Positions 2,364-16,015 of a stretch of DNA of 21,149 nt are shown in pieces; positions within the stretch are counted from its first letter, which is position 1, and the number at the start of each line of letters is the position of its first letter. A model generated the notes under the pieces. It was given only the letters and a program-made list of their open reading frames with translations. It was not told where the DNA came from and did not search any database. Both the position numbers and the translations under genes were made by a program. This DNA is from Nitrospinota bacterium (GTDB lineage: Bacteria > Nitrospinota > Nitrospinia > JACRGO01): contig JACRGO010000085.1 in the NCBI GenBank assembly GCA_016212295.1, positions 1 through 21,149 on the forward strand, written 5' to 3'.

Positions 2364-2843
2364 ATGTTTAAATTTAAAAAAATCATTATCCTGCTAGCGC
2401 TTGGCGCCTTGGGTTGCCTGATGCCGGTCCCGGCCCTGGCGGCCAATGGCCACAACCACGGGCATAACCACGGGACGGCCATTGACCATTCCGCGCATTC
2501 CAAGCAGAATGCCGGCAAGCCTCACTGTCCGGAGCGCCAGGACCAGAAAAAATGCCTGCACAACGGCATCTGCTACATGGGAGGCCTTTGCGCGATGTTA
2601 ATGCGCGGCTGCGAGCACGGCGCCGGAAACCCCGGCCAGACCTGCTCCATAGCCAATGATTGCGGAAAGAGTTCCGGCGGCCAGGGGAATTCCCAGTCCA
2701 TTTCCAAGGATTTTATCCATAGTGCCATGTTTTCCCAGGATATCTCTTTTGCCTGTTACCTCCTTCGTCCCCCGAAGGAGTTCAGCCTCGCCGGTTTTAC
2801 CGGTGAGCCGGAAGACCCTCCCAGGGTCTTCCCCCTCCTTTAA
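2364..2843 (+). CDS. Secreted His/Cys-rich protein, putative metal-binding (paralogue 1)
   Basis: Not a family I can name. The 159-residue protein starts with a clear Sec signal peptide (about residues 1-26, cut after PALA). A His-rich segment follows (NGHNHGHNHGTAIDHSAH), then a Cys-rich core with at least six Cys between about residues 55 and 100 (KKCLHNGICYMGGLC, GCEHG, TCSIANDCG). A C-terminal tail contains AGFTGEPEDPP. The gene at 7644-8135 has the same order: signal peptide, His-rich stretch, Cys core with CSI-DCG, and C-terminal AGFT-PP, so the two are paralogues. The His and Cys content suggests periplasmic binding of copper, nickel or zinc (inference). It opens a run of envelope genes that includes a copper-storage protein. 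No good Shine-Dalgarno precedes the ATG. Confidence 0.75.
   Translation: MFKFKKIIILLALGALGCLMPVPALAANGHNHGHNHGTAIDHSAHSKQNAGKPHCPERQDQKKCLHNGICYMGGLCAMLMRGCEHGAGNPGQTCSIANDCGKSSGGQGNSQSISKDFIHSAMFSQDISFACYLLRPPKEFSLAGFTGEPEDPPRVFPLL
2761..2831 (+). other. Three consecutive hairpins in the gene 3' end
   Basis: Three stem-loops follow one another inside the last 80 bp of the coding region: TCCTTCG/CGAAGGA (2761-2779), CCGGT/ACCGG (2791-2803) and GAAGACCCT/AGGGTCTTC (2811-2831, 9 bp, 3-nt loop). The last is followed by CCCCTCCTTT, so it could act as a terminator whose stem is also coding sequence. Confidence 0.45.
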
Positions 2844-2994
2844 TATTCGCTGATTCCAAGCAAAAAAATTTTATTTTGCCTGTGACCCGGAAGGGCACTG
2901 CTTCCGCTCGCCCTGAATTTTCAGGTCCGGGAGTAATCCGCCCCTGTGTTGTCCACGCTGGCTTGTCCCATGCCTGGGCCGGCCGCCATTGCCG

Positions 2995-3023
2995 TTGCGG
3001 GTTGGCATGGAAGGCTCTATAAA
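2995..3023 (+). promoter_or_regulatory. Likely promoter of the first outer-membrane gene
   Basis: TTGCGG (2995-3000), a 17-bp spacer and TATAAA (3018-3023) form a plausible sigma70 promoter about 95 bp before the start at 3119. The whole 2844-3118 gap is hairpin-rich: 2888-2906 (CGGAAG/CTTCCG), 2912-2925 (CCTGA/TCAGG), 3032-3043 (GCCGC/GCGGC) and 3081-3100. A structured leader is therefore possible, but I recognise no known riboswitch. Confidence 0.4.
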
Positions 3024-3070
3024 TGGTCCCAGCCGCAAGCGGCGGGGTATTTGTTGAACATTTTTTTACA

Positions 3071-3100
3071 TCCCCCTTGGTCCCCCTTTGTTAAGGGGGA
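3071..3100 (+). repeat. Palindromic intergenic repeat (TCCCCCTT...AAGGGGGA)
   Basis: The perfect 8-bp stem TCCCCCTT (3081-3088)/AAGGGGGA (3093-3100) has the loop TGTT and is preceded by a partial direct copy (TCCCCCTTGG at 3071). Hairpins of this CCCCCTT/AAGGGGG type are common dispersed intergenic repeats in several phyla (general knowledge). It sits just 5' of the ribosome binding site of the next gene. Confidence 0.6.
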
Positions 3101-3118
3101 ATAAAATAAGGAGAAACC

Positions 3119-4093
3119 ATGAAGAAAACAATATCGTCCGCGTTATATGCGATTGGATTTTTTATGTCATTAACCGGCGTGGGTTTTGCCTGCGACTTCT
3201 GTCTTTTGTCGCAAGGCGTCTCGCCGCTGGAAACCTTCAGAGGATCAGGCATCCGGATAAACGAGAGATATACCCGTTTAAACAGCGTTTATAAGGGCAC
3301 GGATGAAGTAACTAATCCCGGCGCGAAAGAGGAATACTGGACAACTGAGTTCACGGGCTTTTACAGCGTGACTGAAGACATAATGCTCCTTGCGGTGCTG
3401 CCTTTAAAAAACACCAGGCAAAACGCGCATCTCCACGTGCATGAGGATGGAGACTTGGAGGCGCACAGCGATATGAAGGGAGGAGTAACAGGATTGGGCG
3501 ATGTGGCTGCGCTGGGACGGTATACATTTTTTAAGAACCATACCCTTGACGCTACCACGATTTTAGCGGGCGTCTTTGGGGTAAAATTCCCCACTGGCGG
3601 AACCGGCGGCAAAACGGACGATGGCGCGGAGTACCTTGACAGCCACTTGCAGACCGGCACCGGGTCCACGGATTTTCTTCTCGGCCTCTCATCAAGCTAC
3701 GCCCTGGCGAGATTTTCCCTGTCCGCCAACATACTTGCGGCGCTGACCACTGAAGGCGAGGCTGGAGACACAAGACACCGTTTCGGGAACAGCATTAACT
3801 ATGACGTAACGGCCATGTATCGAGTCCACCCCTTCGAGCTTGCTCCGACAATTTCGCAGGTCTTTCTGGCTTTTGGCTTAAACGGCGAGACAAGGCAAAG
3901 GGAAAAGGAAAATGGCGTGGCCTTGGCCGATTCCGGCGGTTCCACTATATATCTCTCGCCGGCTATAAGGCTTGCCCTGCCTCCGCGCTGGATAGCGGAA
4001 ATCCAGTACCAGCACCCCATATACCACAATCTTTACGGCGTACAAATGGGGGAGGATTATCGCTTAGTGGGAGGAGTGACGTATCTTTTTTAG
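3119..4093 (+). CDS. Outer-membrane beta-barrel protein with N-terminal CxxC (barrel 1)
   Basis: A predicted outer-membrane barrel or porin-like transporter of 324 residues. It has a Sec signal peptide (about 1-24, ending VGFA). The mature protein would start with the motif CDFC, unusual for a barrel and a possible metal or thiol-exchange site. The rest alternates polar and hydrophobic residues as in beta-strands, with Gly-rich turns (GVTGLGDVAALGRY, GVKFPTGGTGG), and ends in aromatic Phe (VTYLF), the usual signal for the BAM assembly machinery. The His-rich loop NAHLHVHEDGDLEAHSD lies near residue 105. AAGGAG at 3108-3113 is well spaced from the ATG. A thioredoxin gene follows, and the same barrel-thioredoxin order is repeated at 4899-6697. 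The substrate is unknown. The layout recalls the MetA-pathway/transporter-type barrels seen near metal genes. Confidence 0.75.
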   Translation: MKKTISSALYAIGFFMSLTGVGFACDFCLLSQGVSPLETFRGSGIRINERYTRLNSVYKGTDEVTNPGAKEEYWTTEFTGFYSVTEDIMLLAVLPLKNTRQNAHLHVHEDGDLEAHSDMKGGVTGLGDVAALGRYTFFKNHTLDATTILAGVFGVKFPTGGTGGKTDDGAEYLDSHLQTGTGSTDFLLGLSSSYALARFSLSANILAALTTEGEAGDTRHRFGNSINYDVTAMYRVHPFELAPTISQVFLAFGLNGETRQREKENGVALADSGGSTIYLSPAIRLALPPRWIAEIQYQHPIYHNLYGVQMGEDYRLVGGVTYLF

Positions 4094-4111
4094 CAAGGTT
4101 TTTTCCAGTTC

Positions 4112-4250
4112 CAGTTTAAATAAAGTGACTAAAGTTTAGAGTGAGCTAAAGTTGCGGTCGAAAAGCAATTTTTTATTTTTTAACTTTAGTTAACTTTAGG
4201 CACTTTAAATTTGATTGCCGCGAAGACGCCAAGGTTCGCTAAGTTTTAAA
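4112..4250. repeat. Long imperfect palindromic element, left copy
   Basis: About 105 bp (4112-4218) consisting of repeated AAAGTGACTAAAGTT/AACTTTAGGCACTTT words facing each other around an AT-rich centre, so the element can fold on itself. Its reverse complement is present at 7503-7611 with few differences. A second repeat word (GAAGACGCCAAGGTTCGCTAAG, about 4222-4245) is also mirrored near 7404-7440. It has no coding potential and fills the whole gap between barrel 1 and thioredoxin 1. Probably a MITE-like or other dispersed palindromic element. Confidence 0.7.
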
Positions 4251-4251
4251 T

Positions 4252-4830
4252 ATGAATCATAATGCCAAATTACCAATGCCAAAAATCTTAGCCGCTATCG
4301 CAACCGTGGCCTTATTGTCCGTTTTCCCGGCATCCGCGTCTCACGGCATGGATAAGGCGCTGCTCTCCAAGGCCGGGCTGCAGGAAATGCGGCAAAAAGC
4401 CCCTGATTTCAGTCTGAAAATGGACGGCCGGACAATCAGCCTTGCGGATTGCGCCGGCAAGGTGGCCATACTCCATTTCTGGGCCACATGGTGCAAGCCG
4501 TGCATGGAAGAGTTCCCTCTCTTCGAAAAAATGCTTCAGGGGCTTAAGGATAAGGACGCGGTGTTTCTGCCGGTTTCCATAGACGCAAAAGCGACCCAGG
4601 AAGAAATAGACGCCTTCGCGAAAAGGCTTGGCGCCAGCTTTCCCGTATATTTGGCGCGGCCAGGCAATATAACGGACAGGTACTGGACATGGGGCGTGCC
4701 CGTGACCTATTTCATTGACAAAAAGGGGTGGATCGTGGGAAGGGCAATGGGTCCAGGGGACTGGGCCGGACCCGAAATTTTAAACCTTATAGAAGGTCTT
4801 TTGAAGGAATCGAAAACACTTGAACATTGA
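4252..4830 (+). CDS. TlpA/ResA-like periplasmic thioredoxin (copy 1)
   Basis: A thiol-disulphide oxidoreductase of the TlpA/ResA/CcmG type, which reduces cysteines in exported proteins (apocytochromes, or copper sites such as Sco and CoxB in known systems). The 192-residue protein has a signal peptide or anchor (about residues 10-30), then a redoxin domain (APDFSLKMDG) with active site WCKPC (Cys81, Cys84) and the cis-Pro loop VPVTYFID (Pro150). An extra Cys67 lies before the active site. Met9 (4276) is an alternative start and would give a tighter signal peptide. Neither start has a clear Shine-Dalgarno. It lies between the two barrel genes and is a paralogue of the gene at 6176. The substrate is not shown by the sequence. 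Reduction of the Cys-rich neighbours is an inference. Confidence 0.85.
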   Translation: MNHNAKLPMPKILAAIATVALLSVFPASASHGMDKALLSKAGLQEMRQKAPDFSLKMDGRTISLADCAGKVAILHFWATWCKPCMEEFPLFEKMLQGLKDKDAVFLPVSIDAKATQEEIDAFAKRLGASFPVYLARPGNITDRYWTWGVPVTYFIDKKGWIVGRAMGPGDWAGPEILNLIEGLLKESKTLEH

Positions 4831-4851
4831 AGGATGTCATGAATCATATGT

Positions 4852-4896
4852 TATGCGTCATGAGCGCATGACACACCACGCATGACACATGACACA
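4852..4896. repeat. Dispersed GCGTCATG/CATGAC repeat
   Basis: This contains a 27-nt word at 4864-4890 that recurs at 19310-19336 with two differences, both times preceded by TGCGTCATG. The words CATGACAC and GCATGACA are repeated in tandem. It fills the gap before the barrel 2 start and leaves that gene without an obvious ribosome binding site. Confidence 0.6.
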
Positions 4897-4898
4897 TT

Positions 4899-5918
4899 AT
4901 GAAACGATACATACCTTTGATAATTTTTTGGCTGGCGCTCGTTCATTCTTCAACTGCCTGGGCCTTTGGCGAGTGCGGACTTTCCTGCTGCATCGGCGGC
5001 GCCGTTAATTCCGGCGGCGCCCTAGCGGAAAATCTTGGCCTGTCCTTTCAGTATGAATACATGCACATGGAGTCCATACTGGATGGCGGGCGGGAGATCA
5101 GCCCAACTGGCGCCCTGAACCAAAATTGGAAGAGAGGCGGGTATTACACCGTGCCGGACAACATGATCATGGAAAAGTACACCCTCACGGCCGCATACCC
5201 GGCAACGGAGAGGCTGCAATTCCTTGGGATACTTCCATACGTTAAAAACAATATGGACATGCTTATGAAAAGCAGCACGGGCACGGTGATGAGGCACAGG
5301 ATGGACACAGTGGACGGCCTTGGGGACATAAGCCTTTTGGGGTTGTACACGGCGTACACGGACGCCCCAATAAGGCCGAGCCGGAGGCTGACCCTTGGCC
5401 TGGGGCTGAAGACGCCCACCGGGAAAAACGACGAAAGGACCTCAACCGGCGCAATGGTGCATGCCATGATGCAGCCTGGTTCCGGCTCCTGGGACCCCCT
5501 TTTCCTGGCCAACTATATGCGCGCCTTTTACCCGCTTATCCTCCAGGCCAATCTTTTGTATCACCTGTCAAACAAGGGCGACGAGGGGTACGAGTACGGG
5601 GACCAGTTATCTTACGACCTCATAGCGCGGCTTCAGGCGCATAACTATATAAACCTTGGGTTGGAGATCAACGGCATCCACGCATGGCGGGACAAGGACC
5701 ATGACGGGAAATATTCCCATCCCCTCTCGTCCATGATGGATAACCCGGACTACACTGGCTTGAACTCCATCTTCCTGTCACCGCACTTTCAAATAAAGAT
5801 ACCCAATACAGGAGGCAGCGTTCAGGTAAAGTACCAGACCCCGGTTTTTCAGGAAGTAAACGGCCTTCAGCAGGTTGTGGATTGGAGGATATTGATGTCC
5901 ACCTCATGGGCGTTTTAA
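4899..5918 (+). CDS. Outer-membrane beta-barrel protein with N-terminal Cys cluster (barrel 2)
   Basis: A predicted outer-membrane barrel of 339 residues. The signal peptide spans about 1-22 (ending STAWA). The mature N-terminus is FGECGLSCCIGG, with three Cys close together, comparable to CDFC in barrel 1. Barrel features: amphipathic strand pattern, motif GLGDISLLGLYTAYTD matching GLGDVAALGRYTFF in barrel 1, GLGLKTPTGKND matching FGVKFPTGG, and the C-terminal aromatic Phe (STSWAF). The two barrels are therefore distant paralogues. Met-rich stretches (MIME, MDMLMKSS, MVHAMMQPG, SSMMDN) could bind soft metals such as Cu(I) (inference). An EF-hand-like DKDHDGKYSH lies near residue 265. The second thioredoxin gene follows. 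No Shine-Dalgarno is visible because a dispersed repeat reaches the start codon. Confidence 0.75.
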   Translation: MKRYIPLIIFWLALVHSSTAWAFGECGLSCCIGGAVNSGGALAENLGLSFQYEYMHMESILDGGREISPTGALNQNWKRGGYYTVPDNMIMEKYTLTAAYPATERLQFLGILPYVKNNMDMLMKSSTGTVMRHRMDTVDGLGDISLLGLYTAYTDAPIRPSRRLTLGLGLKTPTGKNDERTSTGAMVHAMMQPGSGSWDPLFLANYMRAFYPLILQANLLYHLSNKGDEGYEYGDQLSYDLIARLQAHNYINLGLEINGIHAWRDKDHDGKYSHPLSSMMDNPDYTGLNSIFLSPHFQIKIPNTGGSVQVKYQTPVFQEVNGLQQVVDWRILMSTSWAF

Positions 5919-6160
5919 TGAATTCGATTTATGATTTATGATTTGAGATTTGGGATTTAATTCTACTCAGACAGATAAATGGTAACAGGTTAGTTTTTCC
6001 AAAAACCGTGCATTTTGTCATGCTGAACTTGTTTCAGCATCTAATAATAACAATGCGTTATGAGACCCTGAAACAAGTTCAGTTGTTTTGGATATTCAGT
6101 AATTGTAATTTGTAATTTATTTGTAATTTGCTATTTGTCATTTGGGATTTTGTTTTCCCT
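5919..6160. repeat. Repeat-filled intergenic region with 15-bp inverted repeat
   Basis: Two types of repeat fill this gap. ATTTGGGATTT-like words run at 5927-5960 and again at about 6100-6155. Between them lies a perfect inverted repeat, CTGAACTTGTTTCAG (6023-6037) and CTGAAACAAGTTCAG (6068-6082), with a 30-nt spacer. Each arm is itself nearly palindromic. This CTGAA..TTCAG element is a commonly seen dispersed repeat in many bacterial genomes (general knowledge). No gene is supported here. Confidence 0.65.
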
Positions 6161-6175
6161 GATTCAAAAATATTA

Positions 6176-6697
6176 ATGTCAAAAACATTGCGCGCATTAA
6201 TTTTATTTATCATTGCCGTGGCAGCGCCGACGCTTGTGGAAGGAGGGCCTATTCCTTCCCTGGAGCTGACCCCTCCGGGAGAAGCTGCGGTCGCGCCGGA
6301 CATAGCTCTTAATGACTTGAACGGTAACCCGGCGAGCCTGAGCGGCTACAGGGGAAAGGTGGTCCTGCTCCATTTCTGGGCCTCGTGGTGCCTACCATGC
6401 AGGGACGAGTTCCCCAAGATAAAGGCCCTCTGGCAAAGGCTTAAGGACAAGGACTTCGTGGTCCTGGCCATAGCGGAGGACAGCCATAAGGCGGCGGAGG
6501 CGTTCGCGAAAAAGGAAGATATCGGCTTTCCAGTGCTCGTGGACCAGTATGGGAGCGCCCTTCGCTCCTATGGGATCAAGGCGCTGCCTGCCTCATACCT
6601 CGTTAACAGGGAAGGGCGGCTGGAAGGGATGGCTGTGGGGGCGAGGGAGTGGGACTCCAACGCCGCTTATGATTTGATCAGCGGAATGATTAAATAG
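6176..6697 (+). CDS. TlpA/ResA-like periplasmic thioredoxin (copy 2)
   Basis: A second thiol-disulphide oxidoreductase of 173 residues, paralogous to the gene at 4252 (shared LHFWA[ST]WC.PC..EFP and LKDKD). Signal peptide at about residues 1-22, then a redoxin domain with WCLPC (Cys72, Cys75) and the cis-Pro loop ALPASYLV (Pro138). I chose the ATG at 6176. An upstream in-frame TTG at 6128 would only add residues encoded by the ATTTG repeat. As in copy 1, no Shine-Dalgarno is visible. It stands between barrel 2 and the copper-storage gene. In known systems TlpA proteins keep copper-site cysteines reduced, so a job on the Cys-rich neighbours is reasonable but unproven. Confidence 0.85.
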   Translation: MSKTLRALILFIIAVAAPTLVEGGPIPSLELTPPGEAAVAPDIALNDLNGNPASLSGYRGKVVLLHFWASWCLPCRDEFPKIKALWQRLKDKDFVVLAIAEDSHKAAEAFAKKEDIGFPVLVDQYGSALRSYGIKALPASYLVNREGRLEGMAVGAREWDSNAAYDLISGMIK

Positions 6698-6834
6698 TCA
6701 TTGGTCAATTGTCATTGATAAGGCGGAAGGAGGTGACAAATATTATTTGCGCAAGCGGCATGGACGAGAACCGAAGGCAACCCTCTCGCTGCGCGCGGGG
6801 GGAATTATTAAATTTATAAAATAGGAGACGGTTT

Positions 6835-7284
6835 ATGAAAAGAAGGGAAATGTTGCTGGCATCCGGTGGGGCGGTTTTGGCCGCGGCAACCGGACAGGCA
6901 TTCGCCGCTGAGCCTGCGCATGAACATGGGCATCAGCATATAAAGACGGCGAACAAAAATGTTGATCTCGTAAAATCCGCCAATGATTGCGTGCTGACCG
7001 CCGAGCCTTGCCTTGCTAGCTGCCTGGAGGTCCTTGGCGCGGGCGACAAGACAATGCGGGAGTGCGCGGAGTCGATCATAGAACTTTCAGCGGTCTGCGC
7101 TGCGCTCATGAAGACAGCGGCGACGGGGACCAAGCATCTTAAGCAGATGGCGATGGTCGCCAAGCAGGTTTGTCTTTCCTGCGAAGAGCAGTGCCTCAAG
7201 CACAAGGAATACCAGCAGTGCCTTGACTGCGCCAACGCTTGCAAGAAGTGCGCAGAGGTCTGCGATAAGTATATAGGAGCGTAG
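6835..7284 (+). CDS. Csp1-type four-helix-bundle copper-storage protein (Tat-exported)
   Basis: A periplasmic Cu(I)-binding protein of the four-helix-bundle Cys-rich family (Csp1; often annotated as four-helix bundle copper-binding protein). The 149 residues begin with a twin-arginine signal (KRREMLLASGG, cut after QAFA), as in exported Csp1. A short His-rich linker (EPAHEHGHQH) is followed by an all-helical Cys-rich domain. I count 13 Cys in the mature part (NDC, EPC, ASC, REC, AVC, QVC, LSC, EQC, QQC, LDC, NAC, KKC, EVC), spaced like the helix-lining Cys of the family. Methanotroph Csp1 also has 13. AGGAG at 6823-6827 sets the start. It sits among two thioredoxins, two barrels and two His/Cys-rich proteins, the strongest sign that this block handles copper. 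Confidence 0.88.
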   Translation: MKRREMLLASGGAVLAAATGQAFAAEPAHEHGHQHIKTANKNVDLVKSANDCVLTAEPCLASCLEVLGAGDKTMRECAESIIELSAVCAALMKTAATGTKHLKQMAMVAKQVCLSCEEQCLKHKEYQQCLDCANACKKCAEVCDKYIGA

Positions 7285-7326
7285 GTCTTTTTATTTTTTA
7301 ATCACCAAATGAATATATGAAGCGTC

Positions 7327-7368
7327 CTCCCTTGCCCCTTGGCCTTTCGCGGCCATGGGGCAAGGGGG
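7327..7368 (+). terminator. Stem-loop after the copper-storage gene
   Basis: A strong 16-bp stem with one mismatch: CCCTTGCCCC (7329-7338) pairs with GGGGCAAGGG (7357-7366), and TGGCC/GGCCA continue inside. It lies 45 bp after the stop codon. There is no T-run directly downstream, so it may be a transcript-stabilising or Rho-assisted hairpin and not a classical intrinsic terminator. Confidence 0.5.
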
Positions 7369-7403
7369 ATGTCGATTTATGTGGCCTCGTCGCGCAATTC
7401 ATA

Positions 7404-7611
7404 TTTTAAACTTAGTGAACCTTAGTGTCTTAGTGCCTTTGTGACATTATTTTTTTTGCCACTAAGACACGAAGACACAAGGAAGCACCGCGCGGCTCCG
7501 CCGCAACCAAATTAAAAGTGCCTAAAGTGATCTAAAGTGACTGAAATTAAAAATAAAAAATTGCTTTTCTACCACAACTTTAGCTCACTTTAAACTTTAG
7601 TCACTTCAAAC
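7404..7611. repeat. Long palindromic element, right (inverted) copy
   Basis: The stretch 7503-7611 is the reverse complement of 4112-4218 with a few changes (shared words AAAGTGCCTAAAGT, AAAAATTGCTTTTC, AACTTTAGCTCACTTTAAACTTTAGTCACTT). Just before it, CCTTAGTGTCTTAGTG (about 7422-7437) faces CACTAAGACACGAAGACACAAGG (about 7460-7482), a further inverted repeat. The composite fills nearly all of the gap between the copper-storage gene and the second His/Cys-rich gene. No gene is supported. Confidence 0.7.
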
Positions 7612-7643
7612 TTGAAATTGTGCCATTGATGCTTTTTACTAAA

Positions 7644-8135
7644 ATGAATAACCGCATCCGCAAAACAATTTTCCTGGCGTCCTTGCTTTGTTTTTTCGTC
7701 TCGTGGACCAATCCGGCAGCGGCCTCTGTCCATCACGAGCATAAAGGCCACGGGCATAACGGCCAAGCCGCGCCCCCTGGGCAAAGCCACGAAAACCATG
7801 ATCATGGCGGCCTAAACCAGGCAGGCCCCGGCCACAAGAGTTGCAAGCACCATCCCTTTTGTCCGCCGAACCATTTTTGCGAACTGAATTCCCATCAATG
7901 CCACGGCACTGGCGGCCCGGCCTCGCCATTGGCCGCATGTTCCATTTCCAGTGATTGCGGCGGGTCCAGGCCGGACGCCTCCCCAAGCCATTACAACCAT
8001 GAATTTATTTTTCCTTCCATAGTCATCAACCACTTTGCCCCACAGGACCGCTTCCTGCCCATTCACAAGGGGGCCCATCCCGCCGGATTCACGGACGGCA
8101 TTGAATATCCCCCCAAAATTACTTTTCCTTGTTAA
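7644..8135 (+). CDS. Secreted His/Cys-rich protein, putative metal-binding (paralogue 2)
   Basis: A paralogue of the protein at 2364-2843. From the ATG at 7644 it has 163 residues: signal peptide (about 1-28, ending AAAS), a His-rich region (HHEHKGHGHNG, HENHDHGG), a Cys-rich core (SCKHHPFCPPNHFCELNSHQC, then CSISSDCGGS matching CSIANDCGKS in paralogue 1), and a C-terminal stretch with AGFTDGIEYPPK matching AGFTGEPEDPPR. In-frame starts at 7620 (GTG) and 7629 (ATG) would add up to eight residues. I prefer 7644 for the basic N-terminus of the signal peptide. None has a Shine-Dalgarno, as the inverted repeat abuts the gene. A periplasmic metal-buffer role is inferred from composition and neighbours only. 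Confidence 0.75.
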   Translation: MNNRIRKTIFLASLLCFFVSWTNPAAASVHHEHKGHGHNGQAAPPGQSHENHDHGGLNQAGPGHKSCKHHPFCPPNHFCELNSHQCHGTGGPASPLAACSISSDCGGSRPDASPSHYNHEFIFPSIVINHFAPQDRFLPIHKGAHPAGFTDGIEYPPKITFPC

Positions 8136-8216: not shown

Positions 8217-10220
8217 ATGAAACCGCTATTAAGAGCAGGTTTGGCTTTTTCCCTCGTCCTGGCGTTGTCCGCTTCAGCCTGGACCTCAAAAAAAGCCGAG
8301 GCTTATAATCTTTCCCAGACAAAGATATCGCTTGCCGGCGGGCTTCTTTGGCAGGACGTGTGCGACGGTTCGCTGAAGTCCAAGGGAAATTGCGCCGCCG
8401 GTCCGGCATGCCACGCGGCATGGCCGACGTGCCATGACCCCGCGTTTCTGGAAATGGGCGTCAAGAAAAGCAACCTCCTCAAGGAGAAAAAAAATGGCGC
8501 TGCCAGAAAATTGTCCATCTATGTTCCGGGCCAGGAGCATACCCTGACCCTCACCGCCCCTGTGCCGGGCGCGATAAATGGGTTCCAGATGTCGGCCAGG
8601 GACGCAAGGGGAAACAGCGTTGGGACATTCACCGGGGGCGAAAACAGCCAGGTGTACGAAGCCTCAGAGGCGAAGAAGGCCGTGGAGCTTATAGAAAATA
8701 CTCACGGCGTTACGAAGGTTTCTTCGTGGACTTTCAAGTGGACCGCCCCCAAGGCCGGGACCGGCGCGGTCAAGTTTTATTACAGCATGGTTTCCGGAAA
8801 TAACAACGGGACATCAACGGACGACACCACCTACTACGGGGTCGCCTCCATGAAGGAAGGCGCCGCGCTGAATTCCCTGAAGCTCGGGATGCTGCCGGAG
8901 AGCAACGCCCTGCGGGGAAGCAATATGGACCTCACGGGCAGCAGGCTTGGGTCCTCTGGGTGCTTTGTCGACGTCAACGGAGACGGCCTTGAGGACCTGG
9001 TTGCTGGCGCAACCGGCGGAAACGGTTCCAAGGTCAAAAAAGGGGCCGCGCTGGTTTATCTCCGGAAGTCCGCCAAGCGCCTGTCCTCCGAATATTCCCT
9101 CCTCGCCGCCGGCGAGAAAAACGGGGACTCCTTCGGTTCCGCCGCCGCGAATGTAGGCGACGTGAATGGAGACGGGGAGGACGACTTCGCCGTGGCCGCG
9201 GTGAACGCCGCCGGCGAGGCGTCACTGAGCGGCGCTGTGTATGTTTACCAGGGAGGGCAAAATCCCCCGGTCCTGCTGGCAAAACTGGGCGGGAAAATGC
9301 CCCTTGACAAATTCGGCTTCTCCCTGGCCGGAGGGGACATTAATGGGGACGGGACCAATGACGTAATTGTCGGCGCTCCTTATGCCGCAAGCGGTTACTT
9401 CCAATCCGGCGCGGTCTATGTCTATTACGGCGGCAAGGCCATATCCACCTCCCCCAGCGCCGTGATCGGCGGCCCCTCGGTAAACGCCAACATCGGAAAG
9501 ACCGTGGCCTCGGGCGATATCAACGGCGACGGGCATGACGATATTTTCATAAACGCCGGGGCCAAGGTCCTTGTCTACTATGGAGCGAAAAAATTCAAGG
9601 CCAAAATCGAGAACGACGACTCGCCGGACGTGACGATAAGGAGCGATACCGGCGGCAAGAGCGGCTCCGGTTTCGGGACGTCCATAGCGTGCCTTGGGGA
9701 CGTCAACGGCGACGGGATTGATGACGTCGCCATAGGGAACCCCAACAGATCCACTCCCGCCACCTACGACAATAAAGGGAGCGTCTACATCTTTAAAGGG
9801 TCCGCCGGCCTCCCATCGGAGTTTTTCGAGGACGACTCCAATTACAGGCTTTCCAAAATCCTGGGCGACTCAGTGGGGGACAGGTTCGGCTCCTCCATAG
9901 CCCTGGCAGGGGACATTGACGGCAAAGGGACCCCTGACATTCTGGTGGGCGCGAGATGGGCGTCCGGCGGGACCGAAAGCTCCACCTTGCTCTCCGGCAA
10001 GGTCTATCTGTTCCATGGGGAAATACTTCTGGAAGACCCAAGCGCGGTCCTTACCCCGTCACGCGCCAGGAAAGGATATTCCATCACGACCGCGAGCGGC
10101 GAATACGGGAACGTGTTGTGCTGCTCCGAAGACGTCTTTTTTACAGGCGCGCCCCTTGTGGACAACAACGCCGGGATGGCATGCCATACAAGAATACAGA
10201 CCGGACAACGGGCAAACTGA
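8217..10220 (+). CDS. Secreted Reeler-like/choice-of-anchor V plus FG-GAP beta-propeller protein
   Basis: A 667-residue exported protein. Signal peptide about 1-24. Residues about 45-75 carry four Cys (Cys49, 59, 65, 72), two of them followed by His, but no CxxCH heme site. Residues about 97-210 match the Reeler-like/choice-of-anchor V pattern (YVPGQEHTLTL, GFQMSARD, SWTFKWTAPKAGTGAVKFYYS). From about 240 there are FG-GAP (integrin-alpha type) repeats with Ca-binding loops: DVNGDGLED 252, DVNGDGEDD 315, DINGDGTND 374, DINGDGHDD 434, DVNGDGIDD 495, DIDGKGTPD 566. A degenerate seventh (SEDVFFTGAP) lies near 637, as expected for a seven-bladed propeller. Probably a surface protein binding protein or carbohydrate. 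AAGGAG at 8203-8208 fixes the start. A c-type cytochrome gene follows 145 bp later, which fits a joint extracytoplasmic role. Confidence 0.85.
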   Translation: MKPLLRAGLAFSLVLALSASAWTSKKAEAYNLSQTKISLAGGLLWQDVCDGSLKSKGNCAAGPACHAAWPTCHDPAFLEMGVKKSNLLKEKKNGAARKLSIYVPGQEHTLTLTAPVPGAINGFQMSARDARGNSVGTFTGGENSQVYEASEAKKAVELIENTHGVTKVSSWTFKWTAPKAGTGAVKFYYSMVSGNNNGTSTDDTTYYGVASMKEGAALNSLKLGMLPESNALRGSNMDLTGSRLGSSGCFVDVNGDGLEDLVAGATGGNGSKVKKGAALVYLRKSAKRLSSEYSLLAAGEKNGDSFGSAAANVGDVNGDGEDDFAVAAVNAAGEASLSGAVYVYQGGQNPPVLLAKLGGKMPLDKFGFSLAGGDINGDGTNDVIVGAPYAASGYFQSGAVYVYYGGKAISTSPSAVIGGPSVNANIGKTVASGDINGDGHDDIFINAGAKVLVYYGAKKFKAKIENDDSPDVTIRSDTGGKSGSGFGTSIACLGDVNGDGIDDVAIGNPNRSTPATYDNKGSVYIFKGSAGLPSEFFEDDSNYRLSKILGDSVGDRFGSSIALAGDIDGKGTPDILVGARWASGGTESSTLLSGKVYLFHGEILLEDPSAVLTPSRARKGYSITTASGEYGNVLCCSEDVFFTGAPLVDNNAGMACHTRIQTGQRAN

Positions 10221-13905: not shown

Positions 13906-15669
13906 ATGAAAAATTTATTTTCTTATAGCATCCGGTATTTTATACCAGGCGTTATTCTCCTTTTCCTGGCCCTGCCCCAGGTACGCGGATTTTTCGAGTA
14001 TAGCCCTTATCTTTGGTTTTACCTATTTACACTTTCCTTTTTTATTTCTTTTGTCTCAACTCCCTTTTTCCGATGGGCGTCATACAGGTTTAATGTCCTT
14101 GACGTCCCGGACCCGCGGAAGGTCCACGCCAGGCCCACGGCCTTACTAGGCGGCGCGGCGGTTTACATCTCCTTCGCCATAACCGTTATTTACAATTTTC
14201 ATTTTTCGGACCCTCTGAAGGGGATTGCCCTGGGAAGCACCCTTATCATGGTGTCGGGGCTGGCGGACGATATATGGGGCCTCTCCGCCCGCATCCGCCT
14301 CCTTGCCCAGCTTTTAGCCGTTTCCCTTGCCTGTTATTACGGAGTCAACCTTACCTTTCTCCCCAATACGGCGTGGTATTTTACATTTTTTGAAATCCTG
14401 GTGACCTTTATATGGATCATCGGGATTACAAACTCCTTGAACTTTCTCGACGGAATGGACGGCCTGGCAGCCGGGCTCACCGCCATAGCCTCTTTTTACA
14501 TAAGCCTGGTGGCTATACAATCTGAACAGGGCTTTGTTATGTTCCTTTCCGTGGCGCTGTGCGGAAGCGCCTTGGGCTTTCTTCCATTCAATTTCCGCCC
14601 TAAAAGGCCCGCCTCCATCTTCCTGGGTGACTCAGGCTCAAATTTCATGGGGTTCCTGCTCGGCAGCATTACGGTCATGACCGGGTGGGCCACCAACAAT
14701 CCTGTCAAGGCATACAGCATGCCCGCCTTGATCCTGGCCATCCTTATCTTTGACATGACCTATATCACCATTGCCAGATTTTCGTCGGGAAAGGTGGCCA
14801 ATTTCCGCGAATGGGTCTCTTACGTGGGAAAGGACCACCTGCACCACAGGCTGAATAATCTCGGCCTGAGCAACAAGCAGACCGTTTTGTTTATCTATTT
14901 TTTGGCCCTTTCATTGGGCATCAGCGCCATTGTGCTGAAAAACGGGAGGACCATTGACGGCCTGCTTTTGGTGGGGCAGGCTTTCATGATTTTCTTTATC
15001 CTCGTGATCCTGATGCGGTTGGGGGCCGAAGGCGCCGAGGACGTGCATTACAAAATACGCAGTTCCATTACATCCATCCTGGGATTCACAAAGTTGATCC
15101 AGGAAAAAGGCGCCGGCAAAATTAGCCCGGCAAGGGAAAAAGAGTTCCTGGACATAATCCAGTCAGAAGGGGAGAATATAGAAAAACTCATATCGGACCT
15201 GTCGGATATCTCCAAATTCCTGCCGCATGAGGGCCATGATGCAAAAGACGAAACCGGGAAGGCGGAGGAAGAAAAGACTATTTTGGGCAAGGTGCTGGTG
15301 GTGGATGACGATGAGCATATAAGGCGTTTGGCCGAGATGAGCATCAGGAAGAATTTTCAGGTTATTTTCGCGTCAAACGGCGTGGAGTGCCTGGAAAAAA
15401 TGAGGACCGAAAAACCGGACATTGTGTTGATGGACATTTTCATGCCCCAGATGAACGGGATGGATGCGGCGAAAAAAATTAAAAGCGACGTGGAACTGAA
15501 GGACGCCAGACTGATAATACAAACCGCCAAGAAATTAAATCCAAAGGAAATCAAGGAGGCGCTTCTCTACGCCGACCGGTTTTTACTCAAGCCCTTTTCA
15601 CCAAAGGATCTTTTGAATAACGTGATGGAGGTTTTTCATGATATGTATCCACGGAAGCGAAAATGCTGA
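13906..15669 (+). CDS. Fusion: WecA/MraY-type sugar-1-phosphate transferase + degenerate DHp + receiver domain
   Basis: A 587-residue fusion (numbering from the ATG at 13906; an upstream TTG at 13867 would add 13 residues). Residues 1 to about 372 form a multispanning polyprenyl-phosphate N-acetylhexosamine-1-phosphate transferase that would load the first sugar of O-antigen, enterobacterial common antigen or a similar glycan onto undecaprenyl phosphate. Its motifs are intact: LADDIWGL (Asp121/122), NSLNFLDGMDGLAAG (Asp182, Asp185), FLGDSGSNF (Asp242) and DHLHHRL (His311-314). Residues about 379-440 resemble a histidine-kinase dimerisation domain (IRSSITSILGF), but Tyr382 stands where the phosphorylated His is expected, with His381 beside it, and there is no ATPase domain. 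Residues about 461-577 are a complete receiver: Asp467-469, phospho-acceptor Asp510, Thr540, Lys562. The arrangement suggests phospho-signal control of glycan priming (inference). Confidence 0.88.
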   Translation: MKNLFSYSIRYFIPGVILLFLALPQVRGFFEYSPYLWFYLFTLSFFISFVSTPFFRWASYRFNVLDVPDPRKVHARPTALLGGAAVYISFAITVIYNFHFSDPLKGIALGSTLIMVSGLADDIWGLSARIRLLAQLLAVSLACYYGVNLTFLPNTAWYFTFFEILVTFIWIIGITNSLNFLDGMDGLAAGLTAIASFYISLVAIQSEQGFVMFLSVALCGSALGFLPFNFRPKRPASIFLGDSGSNFMGFLLGSITVMTGWATNNPVKAYSMPALILAILIFDMTYITIARFSSGKVANFREWVSYVGKDHLHHRLNNLGLSNKQTVLFIYFLALSLGISAIVLKNGRTIDGLLLVGQAFMIFFILVILMRLGAEGAEDVHYKIRSSITSILGFTKLIQEKGAGKISPAREKEFLDIIQSEGENIEKLISDLSDISKFLPHEGHDAKDETGKAEEEKTILGKVLVVDDDEHIRRLAEMSIRKNFQVIFASNGVECLEKMRTEKPDIVLMDIFMPQMNGMDAAKKIKSDVELKDARLIIQTAKKLNPKEIKEALLYADRFLLKPFSPKDLLNNVMEVFHDMYPRKRKC

Positions 15670-16015
15670 AGAGCATCTGTTGCAAGACAATGAAATCAAC
15701 CGGTTTGACCACATACTCAAAGGCCCCCAGTTCCTTGGCCTTGATGTAAGAGCCGATTTCATTATGGGCGGTAAGGATAATAACCGGAAGATCCGGTTTC
15801 AGGGCCTTTAACTCCACAAGAAGTTCCATCCCGTTCATCCCCGGCATCATCAAATCCACGAGGGCCAGATCGCAGGGCGACTTTTTAAACTCCGCCAACG
15901 CCAGTTCCCCGCTTTCCACCGCCGCGGCTTCATAGCCTTCCCGCTCCAGAAATTCCTGGAGCATGATTCCGCCCATGCGGTCGTCGTCAACTACAAGTAT
16001 TTTTTTCTTTTCCAT
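15587..16015 (-). CDS. Stand-alone response-regulator receiver protein
   Basis: A 142-residue single-domain receiver (CheY-like) with no output domain. The acidic pocket is Asp10-12 (ILVVDDD), the phospho-acceptor Asp54 (ALVDLMMPGMNG), Thr82 (IILTAHN) and Lys104 (YVVKPVD), all intact. The domain ends near residue 118. The last ~25 residues (from about SVDTYHEK) are read from the strand opposite the final codons of the WecA-DHp-receiver fusion, an 83-bp convergent overlap. It lies downstream of lnt on the same strand, separated by a repeat hairpin. No Shine-Dalgarno is visible at the ATG (16015). It could exchange phosphate with a kinase elsewhere. Partnership with the fusion protein is suggested only by adjacency. 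Confidence 0.88.
   Translation of the reverse strand: MEKKKILVVDDDRMGGIMLQEFLEREGYEAAAVESGELALAEFKKSPCDLALVDLMMPGMNGMELLVELKALKPDLPVIILTAHNEIGSYIKAKELGAFEYVVKPVDFIVLQQMLFSIFASVDTYHEKPPSRYSKDPLVKRA

Follow-up and report, generated by a model that had tools for sequence, protein, structure and literature searches.

In Myxococcus xanthus, the phosphorylated receiver protein EpsW~P activates EpsZ, an initiating phosphoglycosyl transferase (mBio 2025, PMC12802240). EpsW~P is found close to EpsZ and, according to modelling, stimulation proceeds through the EpsZ dimer (PMC12802240). That paper also cites O'Toole et al. 2021 for receiver domains fused to small monotopic transferases (PMC12802240), and in archaea receivers are fused to cellulose-synthase-like glycosyltransferases, e.g. 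MTH_548 (PMC5847659). Caulobacter DivL, which has Tyr550 in place of the histidine of its DHp domain, is without kinase or phosphatase activity (PMC4211667). The window analysed here, a whole stretch of 21,149 nucleotides, encodes a protein that recalls all of these systems. Its features are as follows.

13906..15669, + strand: fusion gene, polytopic phosphoglycosyl transferase - pseudo-DHp - receiver, 587 aa (open frame, Pfam)
13906..15015, + strand: transmembrane transferase part, residues 1-370 (hydropathy; relatives of 379-396 aa end here)
14221..14682, + strand: Glycos_transf_4 catalytic core with Asp121/122, Asp182/185 and Asp242 (Pfam, motifs)
14836..14847, + strand: HxHH motif, His311, His313 and His314 (motif reading)
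15037..15225, + strand: pseudo-DHp hairpin, residues 378-440 (Pfam HisKA 384-437; model helices)
15049..15051, + strand: Tyr382, where the phospho-accepting His would stand (alignment with solved histidine kinases)
15226..15285, + strand: charged linker, residues 441-460 (low model confidence)
15286..15636, + strand: receiver domain, residues 461-577, phosphorylation residues complete (Pfam, motifs, model)
15433..15435, + strand: Asp510, predicted phospho-acceptor (motif reading)

The gene is a single frame on the plus strand that runs from the ATG at 13906 to the stop codon at 15669 without an internal stop. In the 587-aa product, Pfam finds Glycos_transf_4 at residues 106-259 (E 3e-35), HisKA at 384-437 and Response_reg at 463-573 (E 4e-20). 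The PF00953 match (121.8 bits against a cut-off of 27) places the N-terminal part in the WecA/MraY superfamily, and all transferase motifs are present, namely Asp121-Asp122, Asp182/Asp185 (NFLDGMDG), Asp242 (GDSGS) and His311/313/314 (HLHHR). The DD, DxxD, GDxG and HxHH motifs are also kept in the relatives. The receiver is likewise a complete member of PF00072, with Asp467-469, Asp510, Thr540 and Lys562 all in place. Across the junction (residues 281-520) GC3 lies between 0.61 and 0.71, matching the adjacent genes, so a chimaeric join gets no sign of support. Thus, the preliminary description was right to report one uninterrupted frame, this domain layout with its coordinates, the full set of transferase Asp and His motifs, from which activity is predicted, and a complete receiver with Asp510 as phospho-acceptor. 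The E. coli-type WecA model TIGR02380 (NCBIfam, UDP-GlcNAc specific) reaches 99.8 bits against a cut-off of 326, and for this reason the sugar donor is left unnamed.

In motifs, length and membrane layout, residues 1-370 match the polytopic phosphoglycosyl transferases WecA, TagO and MraY. Standard members of this family stop after the last transmembrane helix, whereas the fusion protein goes on into a tail. The alignment of relatives covers the transferase part to about residue 374 and then ends, indicating that the tail was appended where the transferase naturally ends. Hydropathy analysis yields 10 helices and a probable eleventh near residues 103-121, with the two last helices coming after the HxHH loop. 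The WecA membrane layout puts the HxHH loop side in the cytoplasm; if the fusion protein is laid out like WecA, its C-terminus, which lies on the HxHHR-loop side, would be cytoplasmic. The start codon is without a clear ribosome-binding site, and the relatives start in the same place. One further initiating-type transferase is found in the same genome, a monotopic enzyme at C186 (the only PF02397 match of the genome).

To follow the architecture, about 930 genomes were searched with E-value limits, 76 of them from the same class, and the results are the matches listed. Among these, the exact order transferase - pseudo-DHp - receiver is found only in the fusion protein, and thus in a single draft genome. 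The closest transferases among the matches listed (G013, G015, G011 and G008) are 60-64% identical, 379-396 aa long and tail-less. In another phylum, G167 encodes a 501-aa WecA-receiver protein without the hairpin (Response_reg 2e-25), and G388, a second genus of the same family, encodes a WecA-receiver fusion too, cut by the contig end. The transferase parts of these two proteins are 69% identical and their tails 34%. In G296, the tail of the transferase is longer and finishes with a degenerate receiver. A tree was built from the transferase parts (119 rows) by a quick method and contains several long branches. The fusion transferase groups with its four tail-less relatives (support 97), and G167 and G388 group with other tail-less rows (support 99); both placements are on strongly supported branches despite the long branches elsewhere. 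The label 'receiver or receiver-like tail' needs three changes on the 119-row tree. Like the fusion protein, the G167 and G388 proteins combine a polytopic transferase and a C-terminal receiver in one chain; unlike it, they have no DHp hairpin and have an origin of their own on the tree, so that their fusion appears to have arisen separately from that in the window. The preliminary description had counted the lack of any homologue with this architecture in related genomes as a refutation. Among the matches listed, the class indeed offers no second case of the exact order, whereas WecA-receiver fusions occur in another phylum.

These data also bear on whether the two parts were joined by misassembly, an objection that the preliminary description itself had raised. 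The source genome is a draft in 237 contigs. However, the join is in frame, falls exactly at the end of the transferase, shows a smooth GC3 and lies within a 21-kb contig, and G167 and G388 independently show the same kind of join, which makes an assembly artefact extremely improbable. The transferase-tail fusion is real and rare, one among several regulatory attachments.

WecA-type transferases with other tails were encountered as well. GAF or GAF-like tails are present in G264 (L074:2034-3716:-), G931 (L151:2144-3853:-) and G121 (L152:2870-4651:+), which belong to one phylum and form one clade on the tree; this is a conserved and apparently regulated transferase, without a tie to receivers. 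The transferase of G171 (L069:1826-3346:-) has a GGDEF-like tail with a GGESF motif, from which it is probably not an active cyclase. In G366 (L060:2951-4591:-) the transferase is fused to a cytochrome c domain (Cytochrome_CBB3, E 2e-10), an odd combination, since the C-terminus should face the cytoplasm and c-type haem is normally attached outside. Several further candidates were rejected. WecA homologues of 607-612 aa in G011, G013, G001 and G095 have a membrane and nucleotide-binding tail (CapD-like by eye) with neither DHp nor receiver. The long frames of the G164 phylum (20 loci read) are all N-terminal over-reading in stop-poor DNA, with no C-terminal extension, and G412 and G414 were ruled out as fusions. 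Matches in G618 and G635 that reach into a receiver (L144:4008-5807:-, L145:4052-5851:-) correspond to two adjoining genes and not to a fusion; there, a full-length OmpR-like response regulator gene follows the transferase gene after about 10 bases.

The segment between transferase and receiver had been described as DHp-like. The HisKA fold is indeed present (E 5e-7, 30.1 bits against a cut-off of 26.9), but its degeneracy had been missed. In the alignment with solved kinases, 'DVHYKIRSSITSILGF' of the hairpin lands on 'NMSHEIRTPLNGILGF', so that in the H box the phospho-accepting His is replaced by Tyr382 and the Pro by Ser. Because Tyr382 replaces the acceptor His, we read the hairpin as a pseudo-DHp and not as a working histidine phosphotransfer domain. 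No HATPase_c domain is matched by Pfam anywhere in the 587 aa. The positions that contact receivers are retained, namely Arg385 (+3), Thr389 (+7) and the aromatic Phe394 (+12). These have the same offsets from Tyr382 as R553, T557 and Y562, the residues of DivL required for DivK binding, have from Tyr550 (PMC4211667). The likeness to DivL, a pseudokinase that reads a phosphorylated receiver (PMC4211667), thus comprises a DHp with Tyr for His and retained docking residues. DivL differs in its PAS domains and retained ATPase domain, in an output that is not a glycan-synthesis enzyme and in a receiver, DivK, that is a separate protein, whereas the fusion protein carries its own. Pfam matches neither a degenerate ATPase domain nor PAS domains of the DivL type in the fusion protein; hence, it may work like DivL but is no DivL itself.

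The state of the hairpin raises two alternatives. The transferase occupies the place that the membrane sensor takes in a hybrid kinase, and His381 stands one residue ahead of Tyr382, so the tail could still take part in a phosphorelay in which the transferase senses flux and the receiver gives the output. We regard this as very improbable, since the ATPase domain is absent and the register of His381 is off by one residue relative to the acceptor position. The tail could also be the remnant of a hybrid histidine kinase, acquired by a recent in-frame fusion, stripped of its ATPase domain and merely tolerated, with little or no function. Occurrence in a single genome, nearest relatives without a tail, and the DHp-receiver order combined with the loss of the His fit such decay. 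Against it, the receiver residues and docking positions are all kept and the coding signature is uniform. Nor was a hybrid kinase with the DHp-receiver order found as a donor among the loci read in the same genome, where the best DHp match, C90, is organized as receiver-GAF-HisKA-HATPase; a single-protein search of the genome's own contigs gave just two receiver matches. Thus, a merely tolerated remnant is unlikely.

We consider it somewhat probable that the protein is an active polyprenyl-phosphate sugar-1-phosphate transferase and that phosphorylation of the receiver at its own C-terminus sets its activity or dimer state. In the mechanism we infer, a separate histidine kinase or acetyl phosphate would phosphorylate Asp510 in trans. 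Two chains would bring their pseudo-DHp hairpins together in a four-helix bundle beside the membrane, on which the phosphorylated receiver would dock as DivK~P does on DivL. Docking may then shift the arrangement of the two transferase units, turning catalysis up, as with EpsW~P and EpsZ, or down, and the committed step of surface-glycan synthesis would be controlled without new transcription. The AlphaFold2 model of the tail, built from four sequences and covering residues 371-587 only, has a mean pLDDT of 82 and contains a helical hairpin (helices 373-400 and 408-433), a low-confidence linker and a (beta-alpha)5 receiver. Its best matches among solved structures are receivers, the top one being RR468 from the HK853 complex. 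Counted in favour of receiver control are the intact catalytic and receiver residues, the kept docking positions, the modelled hairpin and receiver, the recurrence of receiver fusions (G167, G388), an unfused receiver gene behind the transferase of G001 and the EpsW~P/EpsZ precedent. Counted against it are the absence of any tail from the closest transferases, the restriction of the exact architecture to one draft genome and the fact that the precedent enzymes are monotopic and of an unrelated fold, so that their dimer mechanism is not directly transferable to a polytopic enzyme.

DHp domains and receivers can act as docking modules. Given this known use, and a receiver that sits on a flexible linker in the model, receiver and hairpin may instead tether or localise the enzyme, for example at a kinase cluster or the cell pole, or act as a phosphate sink, with catalysis unchanged. 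We consider this rather unlikely: the intact phosphorylation residues and the repeated attachment of receivers point to an output that depends on phosphorylation, even if that output need not be catalysis. That the DHp segment dimerises the transferase and receiver phosphorylation alters its activity, as originally proposed, remains the best guess.

Regulatory genes also adjoin unfused transferases. In G001, of the same genus, the first base past the transferase stop codon already opens a 156-aa CheY-like gene, and a low-molecular-weight tyrosine phosphatase gene comes next. The G001 pair was considered as a direct ancestor of the fusion and rejected as unsupported: because its transferase is not sister to that of the fusion on the tree, the pair is best read as a parallel. 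In three genomes of the class (G013, G015, G011), the tail-less transferase is adjoined by a PilZ-type gene (Pfam run on two of the three) and, on the other side, by a DegT-like aminotransferase gene identified by eye.

L041:170-748, - strand: PilZ-type gene, 192 aa
L042:5773-6351, - strand: PilZ-type gene, 192 aa
L043:7034-7612, + strand: PilZ-type gene, 192 aa

The PilZ-type neighbour hints at c-di-GMP control near the same step. CheY-like and PilZ-type neighbours are different regulators beside one enzyme type.

Elsewhere in the window, a single-domain response regulator gene (15587..16015, minus strand) is convergent with the fusion gene and overlaps it by 83 bases at its 3' end; no functional partnership with the fusion protein is assumed. 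Positions 2364-8135 encode a series of small secreted proteins rich in His or Cys, together with two thioredoxin-like proteins (4252-4830, 6128-6697) and a pair of outer-membrane-like proteins, possibly a metal-handling cluster. The product of 6835-7284 resembles, by eye, a Cys-rich four-helix copper-binding protein, with no match in Pfam. The product of 8217-10220 is a secreted protein that carries a Reeler domain ahead of six FG-GAP repeats, a combination reminiscent of animals.

Compared with the described systems, the claim of a new type of regulation was overstated, given EpsW/EpsZ and the receiver-fused small monotopic transferases (PMC12802240). In EpsW/EpsZ, the transferase that initiates a surface polysaccharide is under receiver control, and phosphorylation is required (PMC12802240), which makes direct receiver control plausible and lowers the novelty. 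However, EpsZ is a large monotopic enzyme of unrelated fold and EpsW a separate single-domain protein, with no DHp; in place of a monotopic PF02397 enzyme and a separate receiver, the fusion protein has a PF00953 enzyme and a fused one. The small monotopic fusions, as cited there, likewise carry the receiver covalently on the initiating transferase, but this is a PglC-type monotopic enzyme and not a polytopic one. Fusions of the MTH_548 type also place a receiver on a glycan-making enzyme, but enzyme class and step differ (PMC5847659). In the open-access literature we came across no polytopic transferase described as carrying a receiver, and no description of a pseudo-DHp placed between the two. 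Hence, the polytopic enzyme class and the pseudo-DHp are new here, while receiver control of a glycan-initiating transferase is already known in principle.

A broader reading, which we put forward tentatively as possible rather than probable, sees polytopic phosphoglycosyl transferases in general as a hub of regulation. Signalling modules (receiver, pseudo-DHp plus receiver, GAF, GGDEF-like) would have been added to their cytoplasmic C-terminus time and again, and through these modules two-component and other signals would directly gate the committed glycan step. The fusion protein would then be the most elaborate case, a self-contained DivL/DivK-like switch in which the pseudo-DHp reads its own receiver. 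Undecaprenyl phosphate is common to peptidoglycan and surface glycans, and how cells allot it among glycans at the first step is a question on which this protein may bear. With a receiver attached covalently to the initiating enzyme, direct two-component control becomes testable within one protein; two-component signalling may act on the committed step itself and not only via gene expression. If this is true, the EpsW/EpsZ finding would extend from monotopic to unrelated polytopic enzymes, including WecA and TagO, and the fusion protein would be a rare case of a pseudo-DHp acting as an intramolecular reader of a receiver.
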